From a virus: a stretch of 41,964 nucleotides of DNA. Positions 1 through 41,964 of this stretch are shown in pieces. Location: the IMG/VR virus record IMGVR_UViG_3300009104_000043, positions 1-41,964 of that record; one strand, written 5' to 3'. Numbering within the stretch: position 1 is the stretch's first letter; every line of letters begins with the position of its first letter. A model generated the notes under the pieces. It saw only the letters and a program-made list of their open reading frames with translations. It made no database searches and was not told the DNA's origin. Position numbers and translations under genes: made by a program.

Positions 1-531
1 CCTTTAACAAATGACTATCATTATGGAGTAGATAAATCTGAATCGTTTTATAAATATGTATCAACAAATTTTCATCATAATGAAAAGCAGATTACAAAAT
101 TATTACAAAATGTTATGACAGATAATGATAAAGGAGCTATTTCAGTAGACAAACAAGTAGAGAGATGGTTGATACAAAGTTATTCTCAATCAAGACAAAT
201 AAAAAATATAATAACACAAATAACTATTCCCGGTGATCATAATAGAGTTGTTGGAGAAATAATAGAATTGAAATATCCTTCAAATTATTATCCAGATAAA
301 GAACATTCTTTTTATTCAGGACTTTATTTAATAACGAAAATTGTACATGCAGTTACAGACAGTACTTATTTGACAACAATGGAATTAGCGAAAGATACAT
401 TGTTTACTAGACTTTATAGAAAATATTCTGTTCAAGAACAGTTAGGAGAAGAAGGAGGAGATTACAGTAATACAGGAGATTCGGAATTTGAGAATCCTAA
501 AATGGGAATGGATACGGAGGTAGCACTTTGA
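1..531 (+). CDS. Baseplate hub protein, gp27-like, C-terminal part (5' end outside window)
   Basis: The reading frame is open from base 1, so the gene begins upstream and only its last 176 codons are seen; the ATG at 115 is internal. The visible part has the C-terminal pattern of gp27 / late-control-D hub proteins: a segment GDHNRVVGEIIELKYPS (bases 232-282), then SGLYLITKIVHAVTDSTYLT (319-378) and an acidic tail. In T4, gp27 trimerises and joins the gp5 spike to the tail tube. Here it lies directly before gp5 and shares the bases TTGA with it, which fits a hub-spike operon. T4 has gp53 at this place, but the visible residues do not resemble gp53. The family call rests on a short segment and on context. 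Confidence 0.6.
   Translation, partial: PLTNDYHYGVDKSESFYKYVSTNFHHNEKQITKLLQNVMTDNDKGAISVDKQVERWLIQSYSQSRQIKNIITQITIPGDHNRVVGEIIELKYPSNYYPDKEHSFYSGLYLITKIVHAVTDSTYLTTMELAKDTLFTRLYRKYSVQEQLGEEGGDYSNTGDSEFENPKMGMDTEVAL
516..520 (+). promoter_or_regulatory. Shine-Dalgarno GGAGG deciding a TTG start for gp5
   Basis: GGAGG ends 7 bases before a TTG codon at 528-530. The TTG overlaps the TGA stop of the hub gene (TTGA, 528-531). This makes TTG the likely start rather than the later in-frame ATG (residue 16). Confidence 0.6.
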
Positions 532-2588
532 GTAGTTCAAATTTTTTAAATGCTAATGATGCAAAAGATTTTATGGGATCTGAAGGTTTTGTTTGGTTTT
601 ATGGTGTTGTAGAAGATAGAAAAGATCCTCTTTTTCTTGGAAGAGTTAAAGTACGATGTATTGGATTTCATACAGATGATAAGACATTAATACCAACAGA
701 TGATCTTCCTTGGGCCGAAGTTATTCAACCAGTAACATCAGCCGCAATATCTGGAATTGGAACTTCTCCTACTGGATTAGTAGAGGGTACTCATGTGCTT
801 GGATTTTTTAGAGATGGGGCAGAAGCACAAGAACCAGTTATTTTAGGAACATCTGGCGGTATACCCGAAAATATTTCAAATCCTGATAGGGGTTTTAATG
901 ATTCTAGATCAATTGAAGAAAGAAAAAATGCTCCTTATCCCCCTCTTGCTATTGATAGATTTAATTCGGGTATTCCTGCAAAAGTTATAGAACATTCTCA
1001 ATGTTTTGAGTCAACAACTTATGAATTTGTTGGAGAAACTCCGTTAAAAGGAGGAAAAATATGGTATGGAAAAAATACTGAAGCGGATTGGGAGGATCTT
1101 CCTCCATCAACTAAAATTCAAGCAAACATTTATAAAAATCCCGAATCTGCAGGACCAGACACTAAACCCGAAAAAGCAAATAATACACCTTTATTTACTT
1201 CTCAGATTTTTTCTAGAAATCCAGATGAAAGTAGAATAATATTTGATGGAGAAGGTATTCCAATTATGTCTTTACCATCAACAACTTTGACGAGTTTAAA
1301 TAGAATAAAATTTTTAAAATATTTCGAAGAAGGTTCTCCCGCACCATATTCTTCTGCTCATCCTCAATCTCAAATTCAATTGAAGGCTCATAGAATTGCA
1401 GGAAGTTTGGCCGCAACTCAGATAAATTTACATAGAGGAGTTTCTAAGGCGGGTGAATCAGGAATTGGATATAAGGGAGAATGGGGATCACCACCAGATG
1501 CATTTAATCCTGAATATCCTTATAATCATGTTACATATTCTGAAAGCGGACATTTATTTGAATTAGATGATACTCCAGGTGGTGAAAGAGTTAGATTATT
1601 GCATAGAACTCAAAGTTTTCTTGAATTTTTACCAGATGGTTCTAGAGTTGATAATGTTGTTGGTAAGTCTTATTTTCTTGCAGATACAGATGTGCATTCT
1701 CATATTTATGGTGATGAAATAAAACATGTTAAAGGTTCAATGAATCATGTTTATAATTCTAGAAGTGCGGGACCTAATAATATATTTTTTGGTGGAACAG
1801 GAGATGTGAATACAACAGTTAAATCAGGAAATTATAATATTCATTTATTAGATGGTGACATGATTGTAAATGCAAGACATTTCAAAGTTATTGGAACATC
1901 AAGAGAAACATCATCATTTCAGCTTCAAAAAATGACAGAGGAACTTGGAGATTCAGGAAAACCCCTGAAACAAATAGCTGAAAGTATGGGAATTGAGACT
2001 GGAGATTTTGAATTAGTATGTTCAAATTATGGACCTGCTATTACTGGAAGTTCTAAAACAACTGTAGGACAAGATTTTGAATTATCAGTATTAGGTAGTT
2101 CAACTGAACATGTTGATGCAACTTGGCCTGGTGTTGGTATGAAAAAATCGTGTAGATATCAAGCAGTCACCATTGAATCTCAAAATCCATTGAGGGGTGT
2201 TGGGGGAGTTATACTGAATAGTGGAATTGGTGGAATAAATTCACAGTTAAAATTAGATGGAAGTGGAATGGATCTTAGTACTGTATTAGGTAGTATTAAT
2301 GTAGATGCACCCATAGGAAATATTAAATTTAAAGCAGGAACAAATTTTTCTCTTGATACTAATACAGAAATAGAACTTAAAAATCAAAAAGGTAATATCA
2401 AAATAGATACTACAGGACTTATTACTGTGAAAGGAATGGCTTCCGATATTCATACTCTATTGAAAAAATTATCAATGGCATTACAAAACATGACTCATCC
2501 AACTCCTGCTGGACCAAGTGGTGTAGCAACGAATATGAGTGAAATTATGCAATTTGATGCAGAAATAGATAAGGTGTTTCAACCATGA
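528..2588 (+). CDS. gp5: Baseplate central spike, gp5-like, no lysozyme domain seen
   Basis: This 686-residue protein should form the trimeric spike at the tip of the tail tube. Residues about 22-110 carry the gp5/VgrG OB-fold (FYGVVEDRKDPLFLGRVKVR, then PWAEVIQPVT and GTHVLGFFRDG). Residues about 331-375 hold the VgrG/gp5-type segment SGHLFELDDTPGGERVRLLH. From about 385 onward the glycine- and asparagine-rich short strands (for example GDMIVNARHF, GNIKFKAGTNFSLDTNTEIE) fit the C-terminal triple-stranded beta-helix. T4 gp5 has a lysozyme between OB-fold and helix; residues 115-330 here show no lysozyme motif I recognise. The TTG start is backed by GGAGG 7 bases upstream. The gene overlaps the hub gene and the next small gene by 4 bases each, suggesting translational coupling. 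Confidence 0.88.
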   Translation: MSSSNFLNANDAKDFMGSEGFVWFYGVVEDRKDPLFLGRVKVRCIGFHTDDKTLIPTDDLPWAEVIQPVTSAAISGIGTSPTGLVEGTHVLGFFRDGAEAQEPVILGTSGGIPENISNPDRGFNDSRSIEERKNAPYPPLAIDRFNSGIPAKVIEHSQCFESTTYEFVGETPLKGGKIWYGKNTEADWEDLPPSTKIQANIYKNPESAGPDTKPEKANNTPLFTSQIFSRNPDESRIIFDGEGIPIMSLPSTTLTSLNRIKFLKYFEEGSPAPYSSAHPQSQIQLKAHRIAGSLAATQINLHRGVSKAGESGIGYKGEWGSPPDAFNPEYPYNHVTYSESGHLFELDDTPGGERVRLLHRTQSFLEFLPDGSRVDNVVGKSYFLADTDVHSHIYGDEIKHVKGSMNHVYNSRSAGPNNIFFGGTGDVNTTVKSGNYNIHLLDGDMIVNARHFKVIGTSRETSSFQLQKMTEELGDSGKPLKQIAESMGIETGDFELVCSNYGPAITGSSKTTVGQDFELSVLGSSTEHVDATWPGVGMKKSCRYQAVTIESQNPLRGVGGVILNSGIGGINSQLKLDGSGMDLSTVLGSINVDAPIGNIKFKAGTNFSLDTNTEIELKNQKGNIKIDTTGLITVKGMASDIHTLLKKLSMALQNMTHPTPAGPSGVATNMSEIMQFDAEIDKVFQP

Positions 2589-2755
2589 GTAAAAAAGAAG
2601 AAATTATTTTAGAACAAAAACCATTAGGTAATGGTAACATGATAGAAGTTTTAGAAAGAGTTTTAAATTTCAATAATGATTATTTAAAGTTTTTAAAAAG
2701 CGAATTAGAAATTGCTAAAGAAAAGCGACTAGAAGAAATGAGTAAAAATGGCTGA
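2585..2755 (+). CDS. Small coiled-coil protein (56 aa)
   Basis: A short gene starts in the ATGA overlap with the gp5 stop and ends with TGA at 2753-2755, 8 bases inside the next gene. The 56-residue product begins MSKKEEIILEQKP and is rich in Glu, Lys and Leu; the second half (VLERVLNFNNDYLKFLKSEL, then EIAKEKRLEEM) is predicted helical with heptad-like spacing. It bridges two structural genes with overlaps on both sides, the usual sign of a real phage gene. The function is unknown. A small tail-assembly helper or chaperone is possible by position only. Confidence 0.6.
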   Translation: MSKKEEIILEQKPLGNGNMIEVLERVLNFNNDYLKFLKSELEIAKEKRLEEMSKNG

Positions 2756-5700
2756 ATCAGAAAATCAAGTTATTTTAAAACAGTTAGAAAATGCTCCTTT
2801 TTCTGGTGATGCAGGAGTTGCTTTAAATGCATTTTTATCAGGATTAAAAACTTTTGGTTATAATTTTTCAGAAATTTGTGATACATTAATTCAATTTTTT
2901 ACAACAACAAAGGCATTTTTAGAAGCATTTAAAAATCCTCTTGCCGGCCCTTTACTTGAAACTATTGATTCTTTAATAGAAGCATTGGAAGAATTACAAA
3001 ATTTAGGATTCGGTAATGTTAATGTTTGGCCATGGGAGCAAGGTGTTTATCCTGCTCAAGTGGATACTACAAAATTAGATGAATCAATACTTGGACTTGT
3101 TGCCGCTCTGCAAGGAATAGCACCTGATAAAGTAGGTCTTCATGAGCAAGGAAGAAGATTTATAAAAACGGAAAATGGAGAAACTTTACTTACACCACAG
3201 CAACATTTTAAAGTAGAAGGAAAAAGTTTAGAACAATATCAGACAAAAAAATACATTTATGATACGTTGTTGGGTATTCGTAATTTTTTCAATCCAGAAA
3301 CATGGGCAGGATCTCAAACTCCTTTTTATTTAGAATCAACATCATCTGCTGGTATAATTGCTGATTATACAAAAGATACTCTTGAAAAAGTTATAAAAAA
3401 AACACAAGAACAATATTTTGTTAGAGAATTAACACCTCAACAATGTGTAAATAAAATTATAGGATCTTTATCGGGAGGCGCTCCTGATGGTAATAGACCA
3501 ACCGGATCTGGGCCTTACAAAGCATATATGTTGATGTTTGCTCTTCCAACAATAAATGGAGTGATTCAGGTTGTACAATCATTTGTTGATTATTTTGCCG
3601 CGGCTCTTGGTGATGAACTATTGATCCATTTGGCAAAAATGTCTAATGGTATTTTTGATGACAAAGAAATAACAATTTCATTAGGAGAACCATTAACGAA
3701 AAAAAGATTCACTTTAGATGAGATGAAAAAGAACTCAGAGTGGTTTTATGAACTTGGAGATTTTATACCAAAAAAAATAAAAGATGGAACATATAAATTA
3801 GGAAATAAAACAATTAATATGTTTAAGCCCGGTGATAGAATTATACAAGAGGGAGGAATATTAGGATTACATAATTTTTCTGCTGAAGTTGTTGAACATT
3901 ATCCAATAGTTATAGAAAATGGTATGATTTTACAAAATAAAGTTAGAGTAAAAGGATGTAGAGGAGAATATTTAAACATAAGTCAAAAGTCTCTTAATTC
4001 GTCTACAGTACCAATTATTAGATCAATTGCAAAAGAAGAAATTGCCCCAAAAGATTTAGCGATTTTTAGATCAGATACATTAGAAAAACCAGTTCAAAGA
4101 ATGGGCACTCCATTTTGGGCAACAATGAAAGAAGGAGATGCTCTATTAAAAGAAATCATACCTAATGATTCAATGGGTCAGTTAATTAGAACATCAACCC
4201 ACGCCAGTTCACATCAAGATTTTAATACAACCCTTAATATATTGTTGGGTAGTAATGATAGTGAAGCTATTGTAAGATCATATGAAAATTTTTTCTCAAA
4301 TCTTAAAAAGGGAATGATAGTTGATCACAAATATTTACGAATTGGAGATTTGTCAGATAGTGATTTTTCTAAAGGACAATGGTTTAAAGATACTCAATTT
4401 AGATTTAATTATGGTAAACTAACAGAAATTGTTCCAGATTTAGGCATACATTGGCGTCTTGCTAATATTATAATTGACGGCGAAGTTATAGAAAATATGA
4501 GTTCTATCGGAAGAGAACATCTTTTTGTTTATCCAGAACCCGAAGAAGTGGGTACCACAATATCAAGACCTACTGCAATGAAAAAAATTGAACTTCAATT
4601 AGGTTTTTTAAATTATGATGGATCATACGATACAGATTTCAGTTTTCATTTTACTAAATGGGAACTAAAAGATATTATAGCTCCTCCAAATGGTGAGATA
4701 AAATCATGGCAAACAAAAATACCTGGAGAAGGAGGTGTAGCTGAAGCACCCAACATACCATTTCAAGGAATAATTGAAACAAAAAATACTACACCTAATT
4801 GGAATTATTTAACAATTTCAGATTTATTTCCAATATATGGAGGAACTATAGAAGAAGCAGTTGGTATGGTGAAAAAATTTAAAAAAGTAGTTGAAGGATT
4901 AATAGGATCAATAGATGAGTGGATAAAATCTTTAGAAAGACAAATAAAAGCAATTCAAAGATTGAATGATCAAATTCAACAATTAATTGCATTTTTTTCG
5001 CAAGGATTAAATGCGACCGGACTTTATTCAGCATCATTTAGTGGAGATGGAGTAAAAGAGTTTAAACAGCAACTACAAAATTTAAAACTGGTACAGACTT
5101 CTCCAAATAGAGTAAATGAAATAAGTTTAGACACAATTGAAAAGGAAGTTGTAATAAAAGATCCTTTTACTGGATTAGATAAAAAAGTTAAGAGAAAACA
5201 ATTAAGACCTACTATAGTAGAACAAACTATAGAACCCGATGGTATTCCAAAAGAATTAACTGAACTTGATAATTTAAAATATTCTGGAGCTATTGTATTT
5301 TTTGCTCAAGGTCCTGATATAGATAAATTTGATACGTTTATGAATAATTTTAATGGATTAGCGACTATCGGAAAAGGATTTCTTGCAAATTTATTGGGTA
5401 CAGATAGTACCATTGCTAATCGAATATGTCCACGGGTACATGAAATTCAAGGACAAGATCCCGATGGTAATTTTACAAATATAGAAACTTTGGGTGAAAT
5501 TGATTCAGAAGGAACTATACGAGTTATTTTTACAAATGAAGCTGATGGATTAAATAAAAAAGATAGAGAAAATATTAATGCTCAGGCCGAAAGACCTGTA
5601 GATTTTTCTCCAAAAATCCAGACTAATAGTATTGTACTTACAAATGTTGATAATGAATCTTTTCAAACAAAAAACGATTCAATTATATTATTTCAAGGAA

Positions 5701-10282: not shown

Positions 10283-10759
10283 ATGGCTACAAACGCAACA
10301 CAAGAAGATGTCTATACTTTTGATCAGGATCAGCTTAATTTAGAAGATGATGAAGCAATTCGTTATCTAACTTTAATGACTCCTAGGGATTTAACTATAC
10401 AGTTTACTAAAAATCCTAATACAGATGATCTTGCTTTAAAAACAGGATCTAATGCAGTAAGAGAGTCTATAAAAAATTTGATTTTAACTAAAAAAGGAGA
10501 AAGGCTGTTTCAACCTGCTCTCGGCTCAAATATAACGGAATTGTTATTTGAACCAGGAGATGTAATTACTGAAAAATTAATTGAAGATGAAATTAGAACG
10601 GTAATGGAAAATTTTGAAGATAGAGCAGAAATAATAGATGTAATTGTTAATGATGATAGGGCGGGAGATGGTTATCGTGTTAAAGTAATTTTTTCTGTCA
10701 TTAATGAAAATGCTCCGTCTGTATTTGAAACATTTTTATCAAGAACAAGAGGTACTTAA
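10283..10759 (+). CDS. gp25: Baseplate wedge subunit gp25
   Basis: The 158-residue protein has the GPW/gp25 fold typical of contractile-tail baseplates. Diagnostic parts are the strand DLTIQFTKNPNTDDLALKTG (residues about 36-55), the helix SNAVRESIKNLILTKKGER, then LFQPALGSNITELLFEP, which is the family hallmark, and a C-terminal strand after EIIDVIVNDDR. gp25 is the most conserved wedge protein; it helps gp6 attach and starts sheath assembly. Its length is a little above T4 gp25 (132 residues), mostly through a longer N-terminus. It is followed immediately by gp6. The upstream TATAAATA lies exactly 5 bases from ATG. Confidence 0.95.
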   Translation: MATNATQEDVYTFDQDQLNLEDDEAIRYLTLMTPRDLTIQFTKNPNTDDLALKTGSNAVRESIKNLILTKKGERLFQPALGSNITELLFEPGDVITEKLIEDEIRTVMENFEDRAEIIDVIVNDDRAGDGYRVKVIFSVINENAPSVFETFLSRTRGT

Positions 10760-12625
10760 ATGGCAGAAGCTACTAAATTACGAGTTTCAGAATTAGATTT
10801 TGATCAAATAAAAAATAATTTTAAAAGTTTTCTTAAAGAACAAGATATTTTTAGAGATTATGATAAAGATGGTTCTGCAATTTCTCAAATTTTAGATATT
10901 TTAGCATATAACACACATTATAATGCTTTTTATTTAAATATGGTAGCAAATGAAATGTTTATTGATTCCGCCACTACTAGAAATGCTATAATATCTTTAT
11001 CTAAATTATTAGGATATACTCCTAAATCAAGAACTGGAGCAAAAGCAAATGTGAACATTTCAATAACGCCTGATGATGCTCCTTCAAATATTACTATAGC
11101 AAAAAATACAAAATTTAATTCTGTTATAAATGGAGTTAATTATACTTTTCTTACTGATAAGTCATATTCAACAACTGCAAATGCTGATAATTCAGTGGTT
11201 ACTATTCCAAATGTTTCGTTAGTTCAAGGAGATTCATTAACGTATAGATATACTGCTAATACGCAAGATTCTTCTCAGAGATTTACTATTCCTAATAGAG
11301 GAGTTGATCATTCAACAGTTACAATTTCTATCAAAGAAAATTCTTTTACTACGGCTTTATCGCCATATACTTTAGCTACTGATTTGCTTGAAGTTGATTC
11401 AACATCAAATGTGTTTTTTATAGAAGAGGGATCAGATTTTAATACAGAAATAAAATTTGGAGACGGTATTTTAGGAAGAAAATTAAAATCTGGAAATATT
11501 GTTATTATTGATTATAATATTTGTGAAGGAGTAATGGGAAATGGTGCAAATAATTTTACAGTTTCAACAACTGTTGGAGGATATTCAACCGCCACTCTTT
11601 CTATTAATAATAAAGCAGAAGGTGGTTCAGATGAGGAAACTATTAATTCTATAAGATTTAATGCTCCTAGACATTATAATACACAAAATAGAGCAGTAAC
11701 AAAAGATGATTATAAAAGAATAGTTTTAAGAGATTATCCATTGGCAGAATCAATAGTTGTATATGGAGGAGAAGAAGCGGATCCTCCAGAATATGGAAAA
11801 GTTTTTATAGGTATAAAACCTAAATCGGGACTTTATTTAACAGATTCAGTAAAAACAAATATTAAAGATAATATTCTTAAAAAATATAATGTTGCATCTA
11901 TAACACCAGAATTTGTTGATCTTGATTACATTTATGTTTTATTAACAACAACTGTTAATTTTGATTCAAGAAAAACAACAAAAACATCACAAACATTAAG
12001 AAGTAATATTATAAGTTCTATTAACACATATGTTTCTGAAGACCTTTATAAATTTGAACAAACATTTAGATTATCAAAGTTGCAAACAAAAATTGATGAA
12101 ACTGATTCTTCTATTTTAGGTAATGATAGTGCTATTAGATTGAAAAAAATATTTACACCAACATTAGATACAAAATTATCTTATACTTTAAAATATAATA
12201 ATGCAATTTATCATCCTCATTCTGGTCATGCTCCTGCTTTAACTTCTACTTCATTTTCTATAAATGATGAAAAAAATATTTTAAGGGATGATTGTAAAAT
12301 TAAAGATAAAGATGGTGTATTAATAGTTTATAGAACAGATAATGAAGGAAAAGAATGGACTGTTAGAGAAAATGTTGGTTCTATTGATTATATAATAGGA
12401 AAAGTAATATTAAATGCTTTTGATCCTGTATCATATACAGGTAATGACATTAGTGTAACAGTTATACCTGTTTTGGGAGATGTTGCATCTTTAAGAGAGC
12501 AATTAATAACAATTCAAGAAGTTGATATTAATTTAAAAATGAATGATGCTTCATTAGTTACAAAACAAGATCAAGTTACAACAGCCGAAACCACAACATC
12601 TCAAACTACTGCAATAAATTATTAA
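10760..12625 (+). CDS. gp6: Baseplate wedge subunit gp6 (baseplate J-like)
   Basis: The 621-residue protein matches T4 gp6 / baseplate J proteins. The N-terminus has the conserved block DKDGSAISQILDILAYNTHY (about residues 36-55) followed by ANEMFIDSATTRNAIISLSK and LLGYTPKS. The middle holds FGDGILGRKLKSGNIVIIDY and the RFNAPRHYNTQNRAVTKDDY block (about 300-319) shared with gpJ proteins. gp6 dimers link the wedges into the iris-like ring that opens during infection. The gene starts right after the gp25 stop, with GAGGT upstream. T4 gp6 is 660 residues, so the length is normal. Confidence 0.93.
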   Translation: MAEATKLRVSELDFDQIKNNFKSFLKEQDIFRDYDKDGSAISQILDILAYNTHYNAFYLNMVANEMFIDSATTRNAIISLSKLLGYTPKSRTGAKANVNISITPDDAPSNITIAKNTKFNSVINGVNYTFLTDKSYSTTANADNSVVTIPNVSLVQGDSLTYRYTANTQDSSQRFTIPNRGVDHSTVTISIKENSFTTALSPYTLATDLLEVDSTSNVFFIEEGSDFNTEIKFGDGILGRKLKSGNIVIIDYNICEGVMGNGANNFTVSTTVGGYSTATLSINNKAEGGSDEETINSIRFNAPRHYNTQNRAVTKDDYKRIVLRDYPLAESIVVYGGEEADPPEYGKVFIGIKPKSGLYLTDSVKTNIKDNILKKYNVASITPEFVDLDYIYVLLTTTVNFDSRKTTKTSQTLRSNIISSINTYVSEDLYKFEQTFRLSKLQTKIDETDSSILGNDSAIRLKKIFTPTLDTKLSYTLKYNNAIYHPHSGHAPALTSTSFSINDEKNILRDDCKIKDKDGVLIVYRTDNEGKEWTVRENVGSIDYIIGKVILNAFDPVSYTGNDISVTVIPVLGDVASLREQLITIQEVDINLKMNDASLVTKQDQVTTAETTTSQTTAINY

Positions 12626-31118: not shown

Positions 31119-32539
31119 TGGCACATTTAGGACAAATCGATAGAAGATTTCCAGGACAAGTGGTTTTCACACGATATGTTACAGAAAATGCTGACTGGAA
31201 AAAATTAAAGCTGAGAATAGAAAATGGTCAGGTTGCCGAAATGTTCGAAGAAACTAATGATGTATTAAACAGTATGAACGTTACTATTCAACCAAGAACA
31301 GAAATAAAATTACTTTCGGAGAAATATAAAGAGTTTGAAAGAAGAAAGTATGCTAATATTGAATATCAGAGAAAAAAAGGATATGTATTAATTTCAAAAA
31401 TAAGAAAACCTACAGATAATCTTAATTCAGAAAGACCACAAAAATTACAAATATTAGCAGAAGATTTTACAGAAAAAGGCAACAATGAAAAAATAACAGT
31501 ACTTTCGAAAAAAGATGTTCCAGTAAAATTATTTAATTCTTATGAAGATTTAAAAAAAAGTATTGTTTGGGGTTTAGATAATAAAATACGTAACAATGAT
31601 TATGTTATAGAAAAAATAAAAGCATATTTGGATAAAGATGATTTATCTGAGATTGATTTGAATGGTATTGATGATAGTCATATTGATGAATTGGGCGTAT
31701 ATTTTGGTGAGATTTTAATAGGAATATTAGCATTTAAAAATCAGTTATCAAATACTTGTTCTCCTTCTGATATGTTTGGTATTAATTTGAAATCTTTTAG
31801 TATACCGACTGATCCTGCATTTAAACTTGTTGATAGTAGTTTGATGTTTGATTCAACTACTGTTAGCATATCGAGTAAATATGATAAGGGCTCCGCCGCA
31901 TCATTTATGTCGAATGTTCTTCCTTATGGAATGAAATATTATACTGGTTATAAAGATTGTTTTTTTAAAAAAATGTGTCGAATCGCATCTAATATGGGAT
32001 ATACATCAGAACAAGTAGGAGCGAGTAGATTTAAATTTTCAAAAAATATTACATTTGAAGTTGGATTAAGGACAATATTAAAAATAAAAAAAGCAGATGT
32101 AAAAAATACAAATCATTCTGTTTATGAAAGTATTCGGAAAGTTGCAATGAATCAAGTACTTACTCCAAAAGAAAATAAAGAACTTGATGATGTAATAGAA
32201 GCAATAGAAGAATATTTTATAAAGAGAAAAATTTTTGACGGAAGAGAACAGGTTATACAAACAATAAGAGGTAATTATCCTTATACAATTACTTCTTTTT
32301 TTAATTATTCTGTAGCGAGTGTATTAAATAATGATCGTACATCAAGAAAATATGTTCATGAAATAATTGGTGGTAAAGATTTTTATCAAGCAAATTTAAA
32401 TAAATCTAAGTGGAGAAAAGGTATTATTGATATAAAAATGGTTTCTCCTAAATCTGCTACATTAAAAATATTAGGATCAATGTCAGGTGCTACAGATTTT
32501 ACTGCAAAACAAGGTTTAGTAAATTACGAGTTAAAATAA
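31118..32539 (+). CDS. Unrecognised 473-aa protein between terminase subunits; possible PD-(D/E)XK-like nuclease fold
   Basis: The gene starts at GTG overlapping the gp16 TAG (TAGTG) and ends overlapping the gp17 ATG (TAATG), so it is in a tight packaging operon. I do not recognise the family with certainty. The first 130 residues are Lys/Glu-rich (KLLSEKYKEFERRKYANIEY). The middle has a helix GVYFGEILIGILAF (E198), then KLVDSSLMFDSTTVSISSKY (D239, K254) followed by DKGSAAS. The order Glu-helix, Asp, strand with xxK resembles the restriction-endonuclease-like (PD-(D/E)XK) core, although the acidic residue before xK is Ser here. The C-terminus (about 420-473) is basic. A DNA-acting packaging accessory is a guess. 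Confidence 0.7.
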   Translation: MAHLGQIDRRFPGQVVFTRYVTENADWKKLKLRIENGQVAEMFEETNDVLNSMNVTIQPRTEIKLLSEKYKEFERRKYANIEYQRKKGYVLISKIRKPTDNLNSERPQKLQILAEDFTEKGNNEKITVLSKKDVPVKLFNSYEDLKKSIVWGLDNKIRNNDYVIEKIKAYLDKDDLSEIDLNGIDDSHIDELGVYFGEILIGILAFKNQLSNTCSPSDMFGINLKSFSIPTDPAFKLVDSSLMFDSTTVSISSKYDKGSAASFMSNVLPYGMKYYTGYKDCFFKKMCRIASNMGYTSEQVGASRFKFSKNITFEVGLRTILKIKKADVKNTNHSVYESIRKVAMNQVLTPKENKELDDVIEAIEEYFIKRKIFDGREQVIQTIRGNYPYTITSFFNYSVASVLNNDRTSRKYVHEIIGGKDFYQANLNKSKWRKGIIDIKMVSPKSATLKILGSMSGATDFTAKQGLVNYELK

Positions 32540-34182
32540 TGGCCAGAGATACTTACGCAGGAAATCCTCTTCTTAAAGGGGCATATACTCCAGTAGAGTA
32601 TGATAAAGAAACTTTAGAAGAATATATTAGATGTTCCAAAGATCCAATATATTTTGCAAAAACATATATGAAAATTGTTCATGTAGATCATGGTTTAATG
32701 CCCTTTGATTTGTATGATTATCAAGAAGAAATGGTTGATACATTTCATAATAATCGTTTTGTTATTTGTAAGATGCCCAGACAAACTGGAAAATCAACAA
32801 CGATTTGTGCTTATCTATTACATTATGCTCTTTTTAATGAACAATCTAATATTGCTATATTAGCGAATAAGGGTTCTACTTCAAGAGAAATTCTTCAAAG
32901 ATTGAAAACTGCATATGAACATTTGCCAAAATGGTTACAACAAGGTGTAGTTGTTTGGAATAGAGGTAATATTGAATTAGAAAATGGTAGTAAAATTATA
33001 TCTGCTTCAACTTCTTCTTCTGCGGTTCGTGGATCATCTTTTAATATTATTTTCATGGATGAGTTTGCACATATTGATCCACCAAGTTTAGCAGAAGATT
33101 TCTTTACTTCTGTATATCCTACTATTTCTTCTGGTAGTACTACTAAAGTTTTTATTGTTTCAACTCCAAAAGGATTGAACATGTTTTACAAAATGTGGAT
33201 TGATGCTGAAGAGAAAAGAAGTGATTATGTTCCGATAGAAGTACATTGGTCTCAGACACCAGGAAGAGATCAAAAATGGAGAGAAGAAACGATAAGAAAT
33301 ACAAGTGAATTACAATTTTCACAAGAATATGAATGTGATTTTATTGGATCACAAAATACATTAATATCAGCGGCAAAACTTAGAACCATGCCTTATAAAC
33401 CACCTATTACAACGAAAGAGTTCTTAGATGTTTATGTTGATCCAGATCCTAAACATTCATATGTGTGTATAGTTGATGTTGCGAGAGGAAGAGGACAAGA
33501 TTATTCTGCATTTTCAATTATAGATGTTTCTCAATTTCCATATGAACAAGTTGCAAAATACAGAGATCCAAATATTTCACCCATGTTATTGCCAAATGTT
33601 GTTGATAATGTGTGTAGATATTATAATTCTGCATATGTTTTAGTTGAAATAAATGATATTGGTGGTCAAGTAGCGGATATTTTACATCATGATTTAGAGT
33701 ATCCTAATATTTTTCAAACGAGTGTTTTGGGTAGATCGGGACAAACCTTAGGAGGAGGATTCGGAAAAAGTTCACAATTAGGAATTAGAACTACAAAAGA
33801 AGTTAAAAGAAAGGGGTGTTCTAGTTGTAAAGATTTAATAGAAGGAGATAAATTACTTGTTTGGGATTTAGATACTATTACTGAAATGACAACATATATT
33901 GCTAAAGGATCGAGTTACGAAGCAGAAGAGGGTTATCATGATGACTTGATGACAACCTTAATTTTATTTGGTTGGTTAGTAAATCAAAAATATTTTACAG
34001 AAATTACTGATTTAGATTTACGTGAAAAAATGTTTAAAGAGCAATTAGAAGAAGCAGAAGCACAATTGATACCTTTTGGGTATATAAATGATGGAAGAGA
34101 TTCTTATGAACCAGAAACCGTAGAAATGGGTGGTGAAAAATGGGTAGTAGATGAAAAGTATTCTACGGAGTATCTACATTAA
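32539..34182 (+). CDS. gp17: Terminase large subunit gp17 (packaging ATPase/nuclease)
   Basis: This 547-residue protein pumps DNA into the prohead through the portal and cuts it. The ATPase half shows the Walker A motif PRQTGKST (residues 80-87), Walker B IIFMDE (170-175, catalytic E175) and the coupling motif STPKG (208-212). The nuclease half has the acidic residues of the T4 gp17 RNase-H-like site: D313 in IVDVARGRGQDYSAF, E370 in VLVEINDIGG and D468/D469 in GYHDDLMTTL. T4 gp17 has 610 residues, so the core is complete. The TAATG overlap couples it to the 473-aa gene. Its last 20 bases overlap the end of the reverse-strand HNH gene. Confidence 0.97.
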   Translation: MARDTYAGNPLLKGAYTPVEYDKETLEEYIRCSKDPIYFAKTYMKIVHVDHGLMPFDLYDYQEEMVDTFHNNRFVICKMPRQTGKSTTICAYLLHYALFNEQSNIAILANKGSTSREILQRLKTAYEHLPKWLQQGVVVWNRGNIELENGSKIISASTSSSAVRGSSFNIIFMDEFAHIDPPSLAEDFFTSVYPTISSGSTTKVFIVSTPKGLNMFYKMWIDAEEKRSDYVPIEVHWSQTPGRDQKWREETIRNTSELQFSQEYECDFIGSQNTLISAAKLRTMPYKPPITTKEFLDVYVDPDPKHSYVCIVDVARGRGQDYSAFSIIDVSQFPYEQVAKYRDPNISPMLLPNVVDNVCRYYNSAYVLVEINDIGGQVADILHHDLEYPNIFQTSVLGRSGQTLGGGFGKSSQLGIRTTKEVKRKGCSSCKDLIEGDKLLVWDLDTITEMTTYIAKGSSYEAEEGYHDDLMTTLILFGWLVNQKYFTEITDLDLREKMFKEQLEEAEAQLIPFGYINDGRDSYEPETVEMGGEKWVVDEKYSTEYLH

Positions 34183-34585
34183 TACGATGAATATTTTTTG
34201 GTTCTTTGATTTGATCAATTAATTTGTCTATGTCGTGTTTTAAATCGGGTCTTAATTTTTTTAATTTTTGTAAATACCTTATAGATTCATTAAATATCAT
34301 TTCAGGATTAATTCTTAATTCGTAAAATTTATTTCTTGTTTCGCTTTTTGTGGTTAAATATAAATGCTCTGGTTTTACGCAATATGTATTATTACATGAT
34401 TGATGAACTATTTTATTTTGTTCAATAGGCCCGTTATAGGCAATATACGCAAATCTATGTGCAGGAATTGATTTTCCATCATATGAAAACATACCATAAC
34501 CCTGCTTTGTTTTACTTGCAGTCCAGAACCAACAATCATTTGTTCTTAAAATTTTTTTTTCAAATCTTTCAATAGCCTTCTTCAT
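34163..34585 (-). CDS. HNH homing-type endonuclease (reverse strand)
   Basis: The 140-residue product has the HNH layout of free-standing phage homing enzymes: CWFWTASKTKQGYGMFSYDG (residues 18-37), HRFAY (43-47), then HQSCNNTYCVKPEHLYLTTK (61-80) with H61, N65/N66 and H74 as the HNH residues and C64/C69 as possible metal ligands. It is opposite in direction to all neighbours and sits between gp17 and gp18, overlapping the gp17 stop by 20 bases. Such genes spread by cutting homologous sites in related phages. I see no intron structure in gp17 or gp18, so it appears free-standing. TATAAATA lies 5 bases before its ATG. Confidence 0.9.
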   Translation of the reverse strand: MKKAIERFEKKILRTNDCWFWTASKTKQGYGMFSYDGKSIPAHRFAYIAYNGPIEQNKIVHQSCNNTYCVKPEHLYLTTKSETRNKFYELRINPEMIFNESIRYLQKLKKLRPDLKHDIDKLIDQIKEPKNIHRINVDTP

Positions 34586-34686: not shown

Positions 34687-37002
34687 ATGGCCTTTCAAGT
34701 CAGTCCAGGAGTAGCCGTAGCAGAAATCGACTTAACTACTAGAGTACCCATTCCTTCTATTTCGGATGGTGCTATAGCTGGTAATTTAACATGGGGTCCC
34801 TTGGAGGAGGCTACATTAATTACTTCAGAAGATGAGTTAGTATCTGTATTCGGCAAACCAAATGGAAACACTTATAAAACATTTTTTAGTGCCTCAAGTT
34901 TTTTGAGTTATTCTAATAAATTAAGAGTTGTTAGAGCGGCTAATACATCAACCGCTAAAAATGCAGTATCAGGTGGTACTGCAATATTGATTCGAAATGA
35001 TAAAGAATATCAGAATACTTACGAATCTACAACAACTTCAGGAACAAGTTTCACAGCAAAATATCCAGGAACCCTTGGAAATTCATTGAGGGTTTCTCTT
35101 TGTGTTGCAGATAGAGCAAATACAAAAGTTAACGAAAATGATAGTACTGTTACTTTAGCAGGTAATACAGATTTTCAGCTTTCTGGTAATTGTTCAAATA
35201 GTGATACTGGAGCTGGTATTACAGGAACTGGTACATTATTTGATACAGAATTAAGAGTTGGAGATGTAGTTGTTCATGGTTCTAATGCTGGAATAGTAAC
35301 TGCAATTACTTCTAATACTGTATGTTCAATATCAAGAGCTAATGGCGGAATTGAAACTACAGGTCTTGGAGACGGTAGTGCAATGACTGATGCAACTCTT
35401 GTACGAAAAAAGAGGTCTGCTTTTGAAGAACCTGCTGTAAATATGCAGGGTTCTATCTCAGCATCGGCAGATGGTAATGAAATTACAGGAGTAAATTCTA
35501 ACTTTACTCGACAAATTCATAGTGGAGATATCATCATGTGTAATGATGATACAGGTGTTCCAATTGAACGAAGTATATCAGGAATTACAAATACAACTCA
35601 TATGACTGTTTCTTCTGCTTTTGATAGAGCAATAACTACACAGGGTACCTGGTCAAGAAAATGGGCATATCGAGATTCTTTTGAGAAGGCTCCTCTTACC
35701 ACCCCATATGCTTATAACGAAACTGGTTCAAAAGATGTTGGAGATGAAATTCATGTTATAGTAGTAGATGAAGATGGAGAAATTTTAGGAGCAAAAGATA
35801 AAAGAGGAAACAAAACTACTAGAAATTTTCAAGTTATTGATCAATATGAGGGATTATCAGTAGCAAATGGAGCTACAGGTACTACTGGAGACACTTTATA
35901 TTACAAAGATGCAATAAACAATAGTTCCAAGTATATTAGATGGACAGATCACTCTGCAATGGGAGATTCTCCTTTAGATGCTGGATCTAATAAAATTACT
36001 CTTGATTGGGGAAATACTCTTACAAAAGGAAATACAAGTGCTAGATTTCCTGGAGCATTTAGTGGCGCAAGTTCAAATGGTATTGTGGAAGCTAGTTTTA
36101 CTGGTGGAGTTGATGGATTTAGTTCTTCGGCTTCAGATGAAATTACTGCTTATAGTTATTTTAAAGATCCTGCAAAAATAGATGTTTCTTTAATAATTTC
36201 AGGTGAAGCATCGAATACTTTGTGTACATATTTGATTAATGAAATAGCAGAAACTAGAAAAGATTGTGTTGTATTTGTTTCTCCTGAAGAAGCAGATGTT
36301 GTTAATAAAGAAGGTAGTGAAGTAACAAACGCAGTTGCTAGAAGGAATGCATTACCAAGTACAAGTTATGCTGTTATGGATGGAAATTACAAATATATGT
36401 TTGACAGATACAGTTCCGTTTATAGATGGGTTCCAATGAATGGTGATGTTGCTGGAATTTGTGCCCAAGCAGACAATGTTAATCCTTATGTTTCTCCTGC
36501 AGGATTTACAAGAGGAAATGTAAAGAATGTGGGACATTTAGCATTTGTACCAAATAATGCTGAAAGAGATGATTTATACATAAATGGAATTAATCCAATA
36601 GCATCATTTCCTGGAAAAGGAAAAATCTTATTTGGTGATAAAACTATGTTAGGAAGACCATCATCTTTCGATAGAATTAATGTACGTAGACTTTTCATTA
36701 TTTTAGAAAAAGCTATAGCAAATGCGGCTGAAAATTTATTGTTTGAATTCAATGATGAATTTACACGATTAAATTTTATTTCTATAATAGAGCCTTTTTT
36801 AAGAGATGTTCAAGCATCGAGAGGTATAGAAGCATTTCAAATAGTGTGTGATGGTTCAAATAATACGTCTGCTGTTATAAATAGAAATGAGTTTAGAGGA
36901 GACATTTTCATTAAACCTACTAAATCTATTAACTTCATAGGATTAAACTTTGTTGCCGTGGCTTCTGGAGTAGAATTTTCTGAAGTCGTTAACGCAATTT
37001 AA
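34687..37002 (+). CDS. gp18: Tail sheath protein gp18 with two inserted beta modules
   Basis: The 771-residue protein starts MAFQVSPGVAVAEIDLTTRV and contains the sheath blocks DGAIAGNLTWGPLEEATLIT (about 28-47) and, in the C-terminal half, FTRGNVKNVGHLAFVPN, GINPIASFPGKGKILFGDKT and SFDRINVRRLFIILEKAIAN, followed by LFEFNDEFTRLNFISIIEPF. These are hallmarks of T4-type sheath. Sheath rings contract to drive the tube into the cell. T4 gp18 has 659 residues. The surplus lies at about 160-240 and 252-324, two successive units of the type ITGTGTLFDTELRVGDVVVH and ITGVNSNFTRQIHSGDIIMC, likely exposed on the sheath surface. A good Shine-Dalgarno (GGGAGAGA) precedes the ATG. Confidence 0.96.
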   Translation: MAFQVSPGVAVAEIDLTTRVPIPSISDGAIAGNLTWGPLEEATLITSEDELVSVFGKPNGNTYKTFFSASSFLSYSNKLRVVRAANTSTAKNAVSGGTAILIRNDKEYQNTYESTTTSGTSFTAKYPGTLGNSLRVSLCVADRANTKVNENDSTVTLAGNTDFQLSGNCSNSDTGAGITGTGTLFDTELRVGDVVVHGSNAGIVTAITSNTVCSISRANGGIETTGLGDGSAMTDATLVRKKRSAFEEPAVNMQGSISASADGNEITGVNSNFTRQIHSGDIIMCNDDTGVPIERSISGITNTTHMTVSSAFDRAITTQGTWSRKWAYRDSFEKAPLTTPYAYNETGSKDVGDEIHVIVVDEDGEILGAKDKRGNKTTRNFQVIDQYEGLSVANGATGTTGDTLYYKDAINNSSKYIRWTDHSAMGDSPLDAGSNKITLDWGNTLTKGNTSARFPGAFSGASSNGIVEASFTGGVDGFSSSASDEITAYSYFKDPAKIDVSLIISGEASNTLCTYLINEIAETRKDCVVFVSPEEADVVNKEGSEVTNAVARRNALPSTSYAVMDGNYKYMFDRYSSVYRWVPMNGDVAGICAQADNVNPYVSPAGFTRGNVKNVGHLAFVPNNAERDDLYINGINPIASFPGKGKILFGDKTMLGRPSSFDRINVRRLFIILEKAIANAAENLLFEFNDEFTRLNFISIIEPFLRDVQASRGIEAFQIVCDGSNNTSAVINRNEFRGDIFIKPTKSINFIGLNFVAVASGVEFSEVVNAI

Positions 37003-37014
37003 GGAGATAAGTAA

Positions 37015-37614
37015 ATGGCATTCGACATAACATCTTTTAGACATGCAATGACCTATGATGGTCAACGGCCTAATCTATTTAAAGTTCAAATACCTAATAA
37101 GGGGAATCTTTTTAATGGAACTGGTTTAGAATTGTTTGCTAAAGCGACATCAATACCTGGTGCTACAATTGGAACAGTTATAGTGCCTTATTTTGGTAGA
37201 GAAGTTAAAATGGCAGGAAATAGAACTTTTCCAGAATGGACAATAACAGTCATTAATGATGAAAATTTTTCAATAAGATCACAGTTTGAAAATTGGATGC
37301 ATAGAATTAATGATCATTCTTCAAATAAAAGGACTGCTGGTTCTGAAGGAACTCGGTATACAAATTTAGCAACTGTTCATCAATATAGTAAAGGTGGGGC
37401 AAGTGATGTGGTCACAGCAAGCTATTCCTTTGTTAATGTATTTCCGACTGATCTTTCAGAAATTACTTTAGATTGGGGAGACAATGATACTGTTGAAGAA
37501 TATACTGTAACTTTTTCATATGATTATTGGACCCGTAAAAAAGGAGGCTTATCCGGTGGTACTGGAGAAATAGCTGATGATATCGTAACTACAGGTGGTC
37601 CTGCTGGAACATAA
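37015..37614 (+). CDS. gp19: Tail tube protein gp19
   Basis: The 199-residue protein has the T4 gp19 pattern: TSFRHAMTYDGQRPNLFKVQ (about 6-25), GLELFAKATSIPGATIGTVI (about 37-56), VPYFGREVKMAGNRTFPEWT (about 57-76), then FENWMHRINDHSSN and a C-terminal block VNVFPTDLSEITLDWGDNDT followed by VEEYTVTFSYDYW. Hexameric rings of gp19 stack to make the rigid tube through which DNA is injected. T4 gp19 has 163 residues; the extra length is a Gly/Thr-rich C-terminal tail. AAGGAGAT lies 5-6 bases before the ATG, directly after gp18, so both are probably made from the same late mRNA. Confidence 0.94.
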   Translation: MAFDITSFRHAMTYDGQRPNLFKVQIPNKGNLFNGTGLELFAKATSIPGATIGTVIVPYFGREVKMAGNRTFPEWTITVINDENFSIRSQFENWMHRINDHSSNKRTAGSEGTRYTNLATVHQYSKGGASDVVTASYSFVNVFPTDLSEITLDWGDNDTVEEYTVTFSYDYWTRKKGGLSGGTGEIADDIVTTGGPAGT

Positions 37615-37642
37615 ACCATCAAAAACATAATTTTCTGATTTT

Positions 37643-37694: not shown

Positions 37695-37708
37695 ATTCAG
37701 GAAATTAC

Positions 37709-39391
37709 ATGCCTATTGAACTATTCGGTTTTTCAATCGGAAAAAAAGAACAAAAGAACGTAAAAGTTCAAACTTTTGCGGAAGCAGAATATGAAGATGG
37801 AGCATTGTCCGTAGCATCAGGTGGTGTTTATGGAACATATGTTGATACAGAAGGTGCTATAAAAAGCGAGTCTGAATTGATAAACAGATATCGTGATATG
37901 GGTCTTCAAGCAGAAGTAGAGAACGCCATCGATGACATTGTTAATGAAGCAATTGTAACATCAAAAGACAAACCCGTTGTACGAATTAATGTAGATAATT
38001 TAAATGTCTCTGAACCCATTAGAGACAAAATAAGAGCAGAATTCAAATCAATAAGTAGACTTTTAGATTTACAGAATTTGGGATCTGATGTTTTCAAAAG
38101 ATGGTACATTGATGGTAGAGTTTATTATCATGTTATCGTTGATGAGAATAATTTAGAAAAAGGTATTCATGAATTAAGAATATTAGATCCTAGAAAAATA
38201 AAGAAAATACGTGAAAAGAAAAAAGAAAAACAGCCTGACGGTAAAACAAAAACCTCTGTTTTAGAATATTATGTTTATAATCAAAAAGGGATTTATCAAT
38301 CTCAAGGACAAGTAATTGGAACTGCATTTACAAGTGCCGCCAGTGGTTTAAAGATATCTCCCGATTCGATTGTATATACACACTCAGGACTAATGAATGC
38401 TACACGTTCATTAGTCTTATCCTACCTACACAAAGCAATCAAACCATTAAATCAACTGAGAATGATTGAAGACTCTCTGGTAATTTATCGTATTTCACGG
38501 GCTCCAGAGAGAAGAATTTTTTATGTTGATGTTGGTAATTTACCAAAATTAAAAGCAGAACAATATATGCGTGATTTAATGACACGATACAAAAACAAAC
38601 TTGTATATGATGCAAACACCGGTGAAGTTAGAGATGATAGAAAACACATGTCAATGCTTGAAGATTATTGGATGCCGAGAAGAGAAGGTGGAAGAGGAAC
38701 AGAAATTTCTACCCTACCTGGTGGTTCAAATCTTGGGGATATTGAAGATGTATTATATTTTCAGAAAAAACTTTACAAATCACTAGGTGTTCCTATTTCA
38801 AGACTTGAATCAGAAGCAAATTATACAATTGGTCGTGCTACAGAAATATCAAGGGATGAAGTTAAATTTACACGTTTTGTTAATAAACTTCAAAGCAGAT
38901 TCAGTTTAATGTTTGATGAGATTATGGAAAGACAATTAACACTCAAAGGCATAATGTCTAGAGAAGATTGGAAAAATGTTAAGAATGAAATATTTTATGA
39001 ATTTGAAAACGATAGTCATTTTGCAGAAATAAAGCATAATGAACTTTTTCAAGATAGATTAAACATTTTAAGAGATTTACAAGATTATGCTGGAAAATAT
39101 TTTTCACATGAATATATAAGAAAGCATATTTTGATGATGACTGATGATGAAGTTAAAACTAATGATGAACAGATGCAAAAAGAGTTAGACGATCCTAGAT
39201 TTTCGGGAGAGGAAGAAATGCAATTTAATTCTGTAGAAGTAGATACGAACAATAAACAAGATATTAATGAAGATATTGATAAAAAAATTGAGGAGAAATT
39301 TGAAGTTGCGAAAAAGGAAAATGAAATTAAAGATAAAGTAAATGATATTCTTTTTTCTGTTTTAGAAGATGATGAAAAATTTGTAAGTTAA
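37709..39391 (+). CDS. gp20: Portal vertex protein gp20
   Basis: The 560-residue protein (T4 gp20: 524) has clear portal blocks: YRDMGLQAEVENAIDDIVNE (about 61-80), RWYIDGRVYYHVIVDENN (about 131-148), RISRAPERRIFYVDVGNLPK (about 262-281), the block around YWMPRREGGRGTEISTLPGG (about 320-339) and LYKSLGVPISRLESEANYTI (about 355-374). It forms the dodecameric ring at the head vertex that nucleates the prohead, docks gp17 and later joins the neck. The last 80 residues are acidic with a Lys/Glu coiled-coil tail (IDKKIEEKFEVAKKENEIKD). T4 follows gene 20 with prohead core genes; here a fibre gene follows. Confidence 0.96.
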   Translation: MPIELFGFSIGKKEQKNVKVQTFAEAEYEDGALSVASGGVYGTYVDTEGAIKSESELINRYRDMGLQAEVENAIDDIVNEAIVTSKDKPVVRINVDNLNVSEPIRDKIRAEFKSISRLLDLQNLGSDVFKRWYIDGRVYYHVIVDENNLEKGIHELRILDPRKIKKIREKKKEKQPDGKTKTSVLEYYVYNQKGIYQSQGQVIGTAFTSAASGLKISPDSIVYTHSGLMNATRSLVLSYLHKAIKPLNQLRMIEDSLVIYRISRAPERRIFYVDVGNLPKLKAEQYMRDLMTRYKNKLVYDANTGEVRDDRKHMSMLEDYWMPRREGGRGTEISTLPGGSNLGDIEDVLYFQKKLYKSLGVPISRLESEANYTIGRATEISRDEVKFTRFVNKLQSRFSLMFDEIMERQLTLKGIMSREDWKNVKNEIFYEFENDSHFAEIKHNELFQDRLNILRDLQDYAGKYFSHEYIRKHILMMTDDEVKTNDEQMQKELDDPRFSGEEEMQFNSVEVDTNNKQDINEDIDKKIEEKFEVAKKENEIKDKVNDILFSVLEDDEKFVS

Positions 39392-39437
39392 AAATTTATA
39401 AATTGATTCTGGTGAAGATTTAGGTGCAGAGATATAA

Positions 39438-41964
39438 ATGAAAGACGATCAAAAAGAACCACAAGACTTAGATTTAAGTAAAGTTTTAGCTACTGCTCTT
39501 GCTTATACTAAAAAAACACTTAAAAAGACTAAAGAAGAACTTGTTGTAGGTATAAAAGAAATTTTAGATCCTGTAACTGGTGAAAAAGTCAGAGTTCTTG
39601 AAATCAAAGGTACTGAAGGTTCCAAGGGCGAAAAGGGTGAAAGAGGAGAGCAAGGAGATCCTGGCCCGAAAGGTGAACGGGGAGAAGACGGGAGAATTGG
39701 GCCTCAAGGTGTTCAAGGACCTCGGGGAGAGCAAGGAGAGACTGGACCTGAAGGACCTCAAGGGGAAAAGGGAGATCCTGGTGATGATGCTGAAGTAACT
39801 AGACTTGAAATTGAAATAGAAGGCATCAAAAAAGTTGTTAAAGATGTTAGTACAAAAGCAACCCAAACTGCACAAAAAGTAGCAGGAGGAAGTGGTTGGG
39901 GTGAAGGAGGCGGTGGAGGAGGAGCCTCTGGCGTAGATGGAACGCATGGATCATCTGGTTCTGCAGGAACTTCTGGAACTGATGGAGTAGATACTGCTTC
40001 ATCGGGAACTTCTGGTGTTGATGGATCATTTTTAGGCACTCATGGTTCTTCTGGATCTGCTGGTAGTTCTGGAGGAACAGGAAGTCATGGATCTTCTGGT
40101 TCTGCAGGAAGTGCTGGAAGTTCTGGATCATCTGGCTCTGCAGGAACATCTGGTACTGCAGGATCATCTGGATTAACATATGCTTCTTCTGGATCATCTG
40201 GCTCTGCAGGAACATCTGGTCGTGATGGTGGATCTTATATTCACATTCAATCTTCAGCCGCACTTGTCTGGTTAATACCCCATACTTTAAATACTAGACC
40301 ATTAAACATATTAGTAGTAGATACTGATTATAATGTAATCTATCCCGAATCCATTCAATTTATTGATTCAAATTATGTAAAAATAGTTTTTAATTCTGCA
40401 CAAGCAGGATATGCTTCATTGACTTTTGGAGAAGGCACTTCTGGAACTGCAGGAAGTGCAGGATCATCTGGATGGACTTATGCTTCATCTGGTTCTTCTG
40501 GAAGTGCTGGAAGTGCTGGAAGTGCTGGATCTGCTGGTACTTCAGGAAGTGCTGGCTCTGCAGGAAGTGCTGGATCTGCGGGAACATCTGGCTCTGCAGG
40601 AACTTCTGGAACGTCTGGTGCAGATGGTCCACAAGGAAATACTGGTGCTGGAGGAACTTCGGGTACATCTGGGACTACTGGTACACATGGAAGTTCTGGT
40701 TCATCTGGAACAGGAGGAACATCTGGAACGTCTGGTGCAGATGGAATAGAGGGAGATACAGGACCTCAAGGAACTGGAGGAAGTTCTGGTTCTGCAGGAT
40801 CTGCAGGAAGTGCTGGATCGTCTGGTTCATCTGGAGAAGATGGGACTTCAGGATCATCTGGTTCTGCTGGATCAGATGGAACTTCAGGTAGTTCTGGATC
40901 TGCTGGAACTGCAGGAAGTGCTGGATCATCTGGATTATCTGGTACTTCTGGTACTTCTGGAACTGCAGGATCATCTGGTATAGATGGTGGTTTTGGGGGA
41001 GCTTCATTTTCATATGTTTATAATACTACACAAGGTACAGATGATCCAGGAACAGGGAAATTAGCATTTACATTAACATCTGGTACTTTTACAACTCCTG
41101 ATCAAGCTAATAGATTAAGAATAAGTGATACGGATCAAGATGGAACAATAATTGATACTTTTTTACAAACAATTAATGATGTTGCTTTTAGTGATCCTAA
41201 GGGTCATATACGAATTTATGATAAAAATGATCCAGATGAATTTATGTTATATGGTATCAATGAATTTGATACTGTAAATCCTTCATGGTATTATATAAAA
41301 GTTTCATATTTAGATTCTTCATTAACTGATTTTCAAAATGCAACTGAACTTGTTGCATCATTTGCAAGAACAGGTGATTCTGGAACTTCTGGAACTGCTG
41401 GATCATCTGGAAGTGCTGGCTCTGCAGGAACATCTGGAACTGCTGGATCATCTGGAATAACATATGCTTCATCTGGAAGTGCAGGATCATCTGGATGGAC
41501 TTATGCTTCATCTGGAAGTTCTGGAGGAACAGGAAGTCATGGATCTTCTGGTTCTGCAGGAAGTGCTGGAAGTACTGGTTCTTCTGGTTCTACAGGAAGT
41601 GCTGGATCATCTGGACAAGATGGTGGTTCGTATATTCATGTTCAAGATCCAGCAAGTACTGTTTGGACAATAAATCACCATTTAGGTGTTAGACCTTTAA
41701 ATACTACAGTTGTAAATACTGATTATGATGTAATTTATCCAGAAACAATTCGATTTACAGATTCTTTTACTGTTAAATTAGTCTTTTCTTCTGCAGTAGC
41801 GGGTTGGTGTGCATTAACTTTGGAGAAGGATCTTCTGGAACTGCTGGTTCTTCTGGTACATCTGGCTCTGCAGGAAGTGCTGGATCTGCAGGAAGTGCTG
41901 GTAGTGCAGGGAGTGCTGGCTCCGCTGGTTCTGCAGGTAGTGCTGGCTCTGCAGGATCATCTGG
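39438..41964 (+). CDS. Collagen-like, repeat-rich fibre protein (3' end outside window; frame disturbed at about 41821)
   Basis: An in-frame TAA lies directly before the ATG, fixing the earliest start. Residues 1-57 are Lys-rich and helical. Residues about 58-117 are some 20 Gly-X-Y triplets ([18 protein letters not shown]), a collagen-like triple helix. A short coiled coil follows (about 118-150). Then come long Ser/Gly/Ala/Thr repeats (SGSAGTSG type) broken by three globular units: GGSYIHIQ...SLTF (about 265-330), a unique domain (about 519-645) and GGSYIHVQ...CALTL (about 732-794), a second copy of the first. Compared with copy 1 (ACTTTTGGAGAAGG), copy 2 reads ACTTTGGAGAAGG, one T short, so the SGSAG pattern continues in another frame after 41821. 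It is likely a trimeric host-contact fibre; there is no signal peptide. Confidence 0.8.
40065..40121 (+). repeat. 57-base direct repeat, copy 1 (copy 2 at 41517-41573)
   Basis: The two stretches in the fibre gene are identical over 57 bases and encode the same [18 protein letters not shown] peptide. Their distance (1452 bases) spans the central unique domain. Such repeats allow deletion or exchange of fibre domains. Confidence 0.85.
40452..40492 (+). repeat. 41-base direct repeat, copy 1 (copy 2 at 41475-41515)
   Basis: The two copies are identical and encode [14 protein letters not shown]. Each stands inside an SGSAG tract. Together with the 57-base repeat they show segmental duplication within the gene. 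Confidence 0.85.
41475..41573 (+). repeat. Second copies of the 41- and 57-base repeats, adjacent
   Basis: Bases 41475-41515 match 40452-40492, and 41517-41573 match 40065-40121. The two repeat types are one base apart here but about 330 bases apart and in reverse order in the first half of the gene, which points to rearrangement rather than a single tandem duplication. Confidence 0.8.

Follow-up and report, generated by a model that had tools for sequence, protein, structure and literature searches.

Clade-wide elimination of the word GCWGC from uncultured T4-like phages, probably under restriction by their hosts

Near-total loss (compositional bias < 0.1) of a palindromic site of orthodox Type II enzymes is known from dsDNA phages surveyed by Rusinov et al. 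2018, in which GCWGC was included and 66% of genomes fell below 1 (PMC6286503). The loss of GCWGC from the T4-like phages described here is of the same kind, and is best read as the known strategy of restriction-site avoidance in an extreme and stable form; unlike that survey's cases, it belongs to an uncultured clade in which its gain and probable reversal can be mapped and in which hypermodification of GpC is predicted to coexist with it. The new elements are this coexistence and the stability of the trait throughout a clade in which a reversal is mapped. GANTC-depleted pelagiphages offer a parallel, in that marine phage groups cluster by the methylation or restriction word that they have lost, but the word is another one, is discussed with host GANTC methylation, and is depleted mainly in podoviruses of the Autographivirinae (PMC9516812). 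HTVC008M, Mosig and Melnitz (Kyanoviridae; phages of Pelagibacter and Methylophilales) share with the present phages a T4-like structural module, gp6 proteins about 40% identical, and strong avoidance, but the words that they avoid are others, and their GCWGC frequency is about normal. TseI and ApeKI are known Type IIP enzymes that cut GCWGC (PMC4926085); they and BbvI (Type IIS, GCAGC) recognise exactly the missing word, and no homologue of them has been tied to the phage's host. A literature search on GCAGC avoidance and on T4-like phages of SAR202 returned nothing on point.

The stretch analysed (the window) is the complete 41,964-nucleotide IMG/VR record IMGVR_UViG_3300009104_000043, and its genes make up the structural module of a marine T4-like myovirus that has not been cultured, a marine habitat of the clade being probable from that of its relatives. 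The nearest cultured relatives found are HTVC008M (gp6, about 40% identity) and cyanophages (portal, about 53%), and IMG/VR relatives reach 99-100% identity in portal and terminase. The genes named are:

528..2588, plus strand: gp5-like baseplate hub subunit and tail lysozyme (PHROG 430, E 3e-84)
10283..10759, plus strand: gp25-like baseplate wedge subunit (PHROG 261; named through HTVC008M homology in relatives)
10760..12625, plus strand: gp6-like baseplate wedge subunit (PHROG 219, E 1e-171; 40% identity to Pelagibacter phage HTVC008M)
16830..18611, plus strand: gp8-like baseplate wedge subunit (PHROG 438; HTVC008M homology in relatives)
18615..25532, plus strand: VrlC-like giant structural protein of 2305 aa (the relatives' copy is homologous to HTVC008M VrlC)
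28518..29378, plus strand: gp14-like head closure protein (PHROG 460)
29773..30705, plus strand: gp3-like tail sheath stabiliser (PHROG 227)
30714..31118, plus strand: gp16-like terminase small subunit (PHROG 445)
32539..34182, plus strand: gp17 terminase large subunit (PHROG 5989), marker for the terL tree
34163..34585, minus strand: HNH_3 endonuclease between terL and the sheath gene (Pfam PF13392, E 6.6e-9)
34687..37002, plus strand: gp18-like tail sheath (PHROG 23)
37015..37614, plus strand: gp19-like tail tube (PHROG 45)
37709..39391, plus strand: gp20-like portal protein (PHROG 213, E 1e-203), the query with which relatives were gathered

Neither GCAGC nor GCTGC occurs on either strand of positions 1..41964, confirming the central observation of an earlier sequence-only reading. 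The two words are reverse complements and make up one double-strand site, GCWGC, so that the site sets of BbvI and of TseI/ApeKI are identical. Expected numbers of the site are 21.5 +/- 4.8 by dinucleotide shuffling of the window, 26.6 +/- 2.1 (z -12.7) by synonymous-codon shuffling of its 22 closed genes, and 32.2 by a maximal-order Markov model of the window, compared with which the earlier estimate of 15-20 was slightly low. The comparison of 5-mers with Markov and codon-shuffled expectations that the same reading had proposed places GCWGC as the most depleted of all 5-mers against codon shuffling; the most enriched is GCSGC, with 31 sites in the window and 30 in the closed genes (4.9 expected). 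The enrichment can be seen at junctions such as these:

741..745, plus strand: recoded Ala-Ala junction GCCGC, in frame, in the gp5 gene
3597..3604, plus strand: Ala-Ala-Ala run GCC GCG GC., with two consecutive GCS first codons
25026..25033, plus strand: second Ala-Ala-Ala run, GCC GCG GC.

The first codon of an Ala-Ala pair is GCC or GCG in 30/30 cases within the closed genes, and in 31/31 once ORFs that cross the ends are added, compared with 86% GCA or GCT among all alanine codons of the closed genes (GCA 389, GCT 258, GCC 54, GCG 52). The switch of codon requires a following GC, because alanines that precede other G-initial codons are still 81% GCA or GCT. The earlier statements that GCCGC and GCGGC are common, that about 30 Ala-Ala junctions all begin with GCC or GCG, and that single alanines are mostly GCA or GCT thus hold, and the junction positions listed with them are correct to about 2 bases.

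Because about 93-96% of the expected GCWGC sites (about 96% in the window) are in-frame Ala-Ala pairs, the window alone is compatible with a codon-pair or translational bias against GCA or GCT before alanine, and the avoiders' Ala-Ala dipeptides, at O/E 0.66-0.76, agree with such a bias. Off-frame GCWGC is also absent, however (0 sites compared with 25.5 expected in eight pooled contigs, which share some homologous genes and are therefore not independent samples), while controls do carry off-frame sites; no GCWGC was seen in short intergenic stretches, and words one mismatch away from it have O/E of 0.64-1.34. What is avoided is the DNA word, whatever the reading frame. Codon-pair bias, disfavoured by the off-frame zeros, is rejected on these together with the absence of other restriction palindromes, and a sister subclade with similar alanine codon usage codes Ala-Ala normally; its probability is negligible. 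When glycine-rich proteins are dropped, Ala-Ala dipeptides compared with a local-shuffle expectation have O/E of 0.76 and 0.66 in avoiders and 1.08 in the sister, lending weak support to a protein-level trace of the avoidance, weak because Melnitz, a non-avoider, is also at 0.71.

The avoidance extends across the clade, as a repetition of the count in related phages, another check suggested by the sequence-only reading, made clear. A contig of 161,038 bases (L377; G047:C1), whose DNA matches the window at 83-93% identity along most of the window, has no GCWGC where 111.9 +/- 4.6 sites are expected, and 124/124 of its Ala-Ala pairs are GCS-first; it probably falls short of a complete genome, because it has neither a terminal repeat nor a primase or reductase match (matches that G024 has). 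Further contigs of the clade likewise have no site (observed/expected, among others: G001 0/55, G002 0/50, G024 0/59, G037 0/35, G012 0/31), and 50 portal loci, near-copies included, have 5 sites compared with 398 expected, the five being at three distinct places, two in collagen-like repeat sequence. Outer members also avoid the word (G042 3/68, G045 0/23). The sister subclade has GCWGC at expectation (for example, 16/15 and 29/30), and homologous Ala-Ala pairs, small in number, are GCS in the clade; the sister and HTVC008M mostly have GCW at these pairs. Quick maximum-likelihood trees of gp44 and terL place all avoiders in one clade (SH-aLRT 98-100), and two changes suffice on each. One gain at the base and one probable reversal in the sister subclade, the reading adopted here, would fit both trees; two independent gains would cost the same number of changes on both. 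Three rows of the gp44 tree (L214-L216) are intermediate, and avoidance of AGCT and of GATC requires more changes within the two trees than that of GCWGC.

Other words are missing as well. The 161-kb contig lacks AGATCT (0/55), CAGCTG (0/49), AAGCTT (0/41), ACTAGT (0/34) and CGWCG (0/16), and is poor in CCGG (15/99) and AGCT (167/430); the expectations for CAGCTG and AAGCTT are somewhat inflated because both contain AGCT, itself reduced. Several Type II systems would between them leave losses of this kind, as expected of a history of restriction. Elsewhere, GATC is totally absent alongside GCWGC (L112-L114, L211-L213, L369), or, in other lineages, AGCT is totally absent instead (L064, L029, L046, L187, L192, L201-L210). 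HTVC008M (L153, L173, L174) has its own list (TCGA 2/211, TCAAGA 0/109, CGCG 0/32, with CASTG, GATC and GANTC low), and the part of the Mosig genome counted has ACGT at 0/84; in SAR11, a restriction-modification system has been reported in only one of >100 genomes (PMC7029224).

A GCWGC nuclease encoded by the phage itself, degrading host DNA and obliging the phage to avoid the word in order to spare itself, would suit a trait that is linked to the clade and more stable than avoidance of AGCT or GATC, and an HNH endonuclease gene does adjoin terL in the window. This gene is present in GCWGC-normal relatives too, at 62-79% identity for the copies of the sister and about 40% for those of the outgroup; it is unlikely to be the cause because avoiders and non-avoiders alike possess it, and it was rejected as the cutter. 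No Type II restriction enzyme was found when Pfam and PADLOC were run on many unassigned ORFs from the 161-kb contig and from part of G024, a weak negative, as profiles often miss enzymes of this type and the contigs may all be incomplete. Several unrelated palindromes, moreover, are absent together, and a nuclease of the phage's own is a very improbable cause.

Outside the window, the inner clade has genes that bear on the same word. SpCmoX of Synechococcus phage S-B43 places a carboxymethyl group on the cytosine of GpC, and SpCmoY attaches glycine; host CmoA can supply the Cx-SAM, a phage CmoA being usual and not obligatory (PMC12783734, PDB 8YF3). Inner-clade contigs that span the stretch from gp46 to the peptidase (L154, L179, L180, L181, L187, L192, C1) possess a C5-methylase homologous to CmoX, about 52% identical to SpCmoX, and, as in S-B43, beside it a CmoY-like Asn-synthase homologue, in an ORF that overlaps CmoX upstream and is 45-47% identical to SpCmoY. 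Two locations assigned by homology are:

L154, 7868-9124 and 9088-9924, minus strand: CmoX/CmoY pair
L397, 10103-11362, plus strand: CmoX/CmoY pair

The three CmoX homologues checked retain the SPPC motif, R350 and the remaining listed residues that contact Cx-SAM. Unlike S-B43, the phages yielded no blastp match to CmoA in C1, G001 and G024, which are incomplete contigs. The inner-clade phages are thus predicted, from homology, to hypermodify GpC through CmoX and CmoY, by carboxymethylation of cytosine and amide ligation. Since GCWGC contains two GpC steps, a modification-sensitive enzyme should be blocked there by such modification, and possible reasons why avoidance persists despite CmoX are incomplete modification, another specificity of the modifying enzymes, or a restriction enzyme that is tolerant of modification or dependent on it.

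CmoX is disfavoured as the cause of the avoidance. PF00145 was not found in the fragments of the outer avoiders G042 and G045, nor was CmoX seen in outer-group loci that cover the region from the peptidase to gp44, and in the CmoX-bearing cyanophages S-B43 and S-CRM01 GCWGC is normal over the sequence read (41 kb for S-B43). Because there are outer avoiders in which CmoX was not detected and CmoX-bearing cyanophages in which GCWGC is normal, CmoX appears to be neither necessary nor sufficient. An intrinsic clash between neighbouring modified GpC steps was rejected on the same cyanophages, and Melnitz, which has a 38% identical C5 methylase, is also GCWGC-normal.

Mutational loss, in which cytosine modification at GCWGC raises the rate of C-to-T change and erodes the sites, could draw on the CmoX-type C5 modification predicted in part of the clade, but most contigs have exactly zero sites, GCSGC with the same GpC steps is up about sixfold in the 161-kb contig, and CmoX is undetected in some avoiders and coexists with GCWGC in the cyanophages; this explanation is scarcely credible. 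A modification-dependent enzyme of the host is a further rival explanation. Enzymes of the BisI type cut GCNGC with two to four modified cytosines, and some members prefer GCWGC (PMC4926085). An enzyme of this type might attack GpC steps that the phage itself has modified: each GCWGC would have two of them, with four modified cytosines, the inner-clade CmoX retains SPPC, R350 and the Cx-SAM contacts and has its CmoY homologue adjacent, SpCmoX is known to modify GpC (PMC12783734), and persistence of the avoidance beside GpC modification would be accounted for. This reading is nevertheless improbable, given the outer avoiders and loci in which no such methylase was found and the GCWGC-normal, CmoX-bearing S-B43 and S-CRM01, and given the excess of GCSGC, which BisI recognises as well, although these records are fragments and other cytosine modifications may occur.

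The preferred explanation, to which a probability of roughly 0.8 may be assigned, is that GCWGC was eliminated by long purifying selection exerted by an orthodox Type II enzyme of BbvI/TseI/ApeKI specificity common among the hosts. The word is a self-complementary site of the palindromic orthodox Type II kind, and its O/E against a codon-preserving null is below 0.1, the value used to recognise Type II avoidance, in the window (0/27), in the 161-kb contig (0/112) and in the portal loci (5/398). Any GCWGC arising by mutation would be a target for cleavage and would be removed; Ala-Ala pairs, the main source of the word, would persist only where GCC or GCG is the first codon; and the sister subclade may have moved to hosts without the enzyme, upon which sites would have returned, so that its normal frequency would be a reversal. 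Long selection against the word, which the sequence-only reading had proposed, is strongly supported by total or near-total absence over several hundred expected sites, by the off-frame zeros, by a history that can be read as one gain and one reversal, and by the absence of other palindromes. Its attribution to a host GCWGC enzyme as the simplest reading is the best inference available, and leaves out the predicted CmoX/CmoY pair: selection by a host enzyme is less easily accepted because predicted GpC modification should hinder a modification-sensitive enzyme and relax it, yet no site has returned. Why GpC modification did not relieve the need for avoidance is thus a question that these phages raise. 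One tentative answer, itself rather unlikely, is that GpC modification is tolerated or required by the host enzyme, so that the inner clade still purges GCWGC, in a second round of the arms race in which modification gave no protection at this word and only elimination of the sequence protects.

These phages provide an unusually clean natural record of conflict between phage and restriction, with its trace in codon choice, namely the use of rare alanine codons in Ala-Ala pairs. Taken together, the missing words GCWGC, AGATCT, CAGCTG, AAGCTT and ACTAGT make a fingerprint that might, through the restriction systems of the hosts, help in identifying the hosts of uncultured marine phages; prediction of the host from the one word alone, as had been hoped, is not yet possible. 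A scan of genomes, one per species, found one copy, on a contig in the bin of a Chloroflexi metagenome-assembled genome. Binning of phage contigs is unreliable. Other sampled contigs of the bin have about 38-46% GC and normal GCWGC; no PF01555 methylase was found in this genome, its sole PF00145 match is the phage's own gene, and terL was not found in 39 of its relatives. The search for a host GCWGC enzyme that the sequence-only reading had recommended identified no host carrying such a methylase or endonuclease, and no methylase candidate in this genome. In the same order, PF01555 matches are often numerous, with as many as 22 in one genome, hinting at many modification systems, and freshwater Chloroflexi methylate GCWGC (PMC6329791). 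These points are no more than suggestive of a Chloroflexi host. A second phage-like contig in the bin (L387, G047:C8) has GCWGC at 34/35, CCGG at 0/17 and a distant terminase match (24%).

The first 32 kb of the 161-kb contig (G047:C1:1-32000; L380 and the first 12 kb of L392) contain a long run of radical-SAM and SPASM ORFs (13 of 39 scanned proteins, and another 3 in other parts of the contig), which is unexpected for a T4-like phage.
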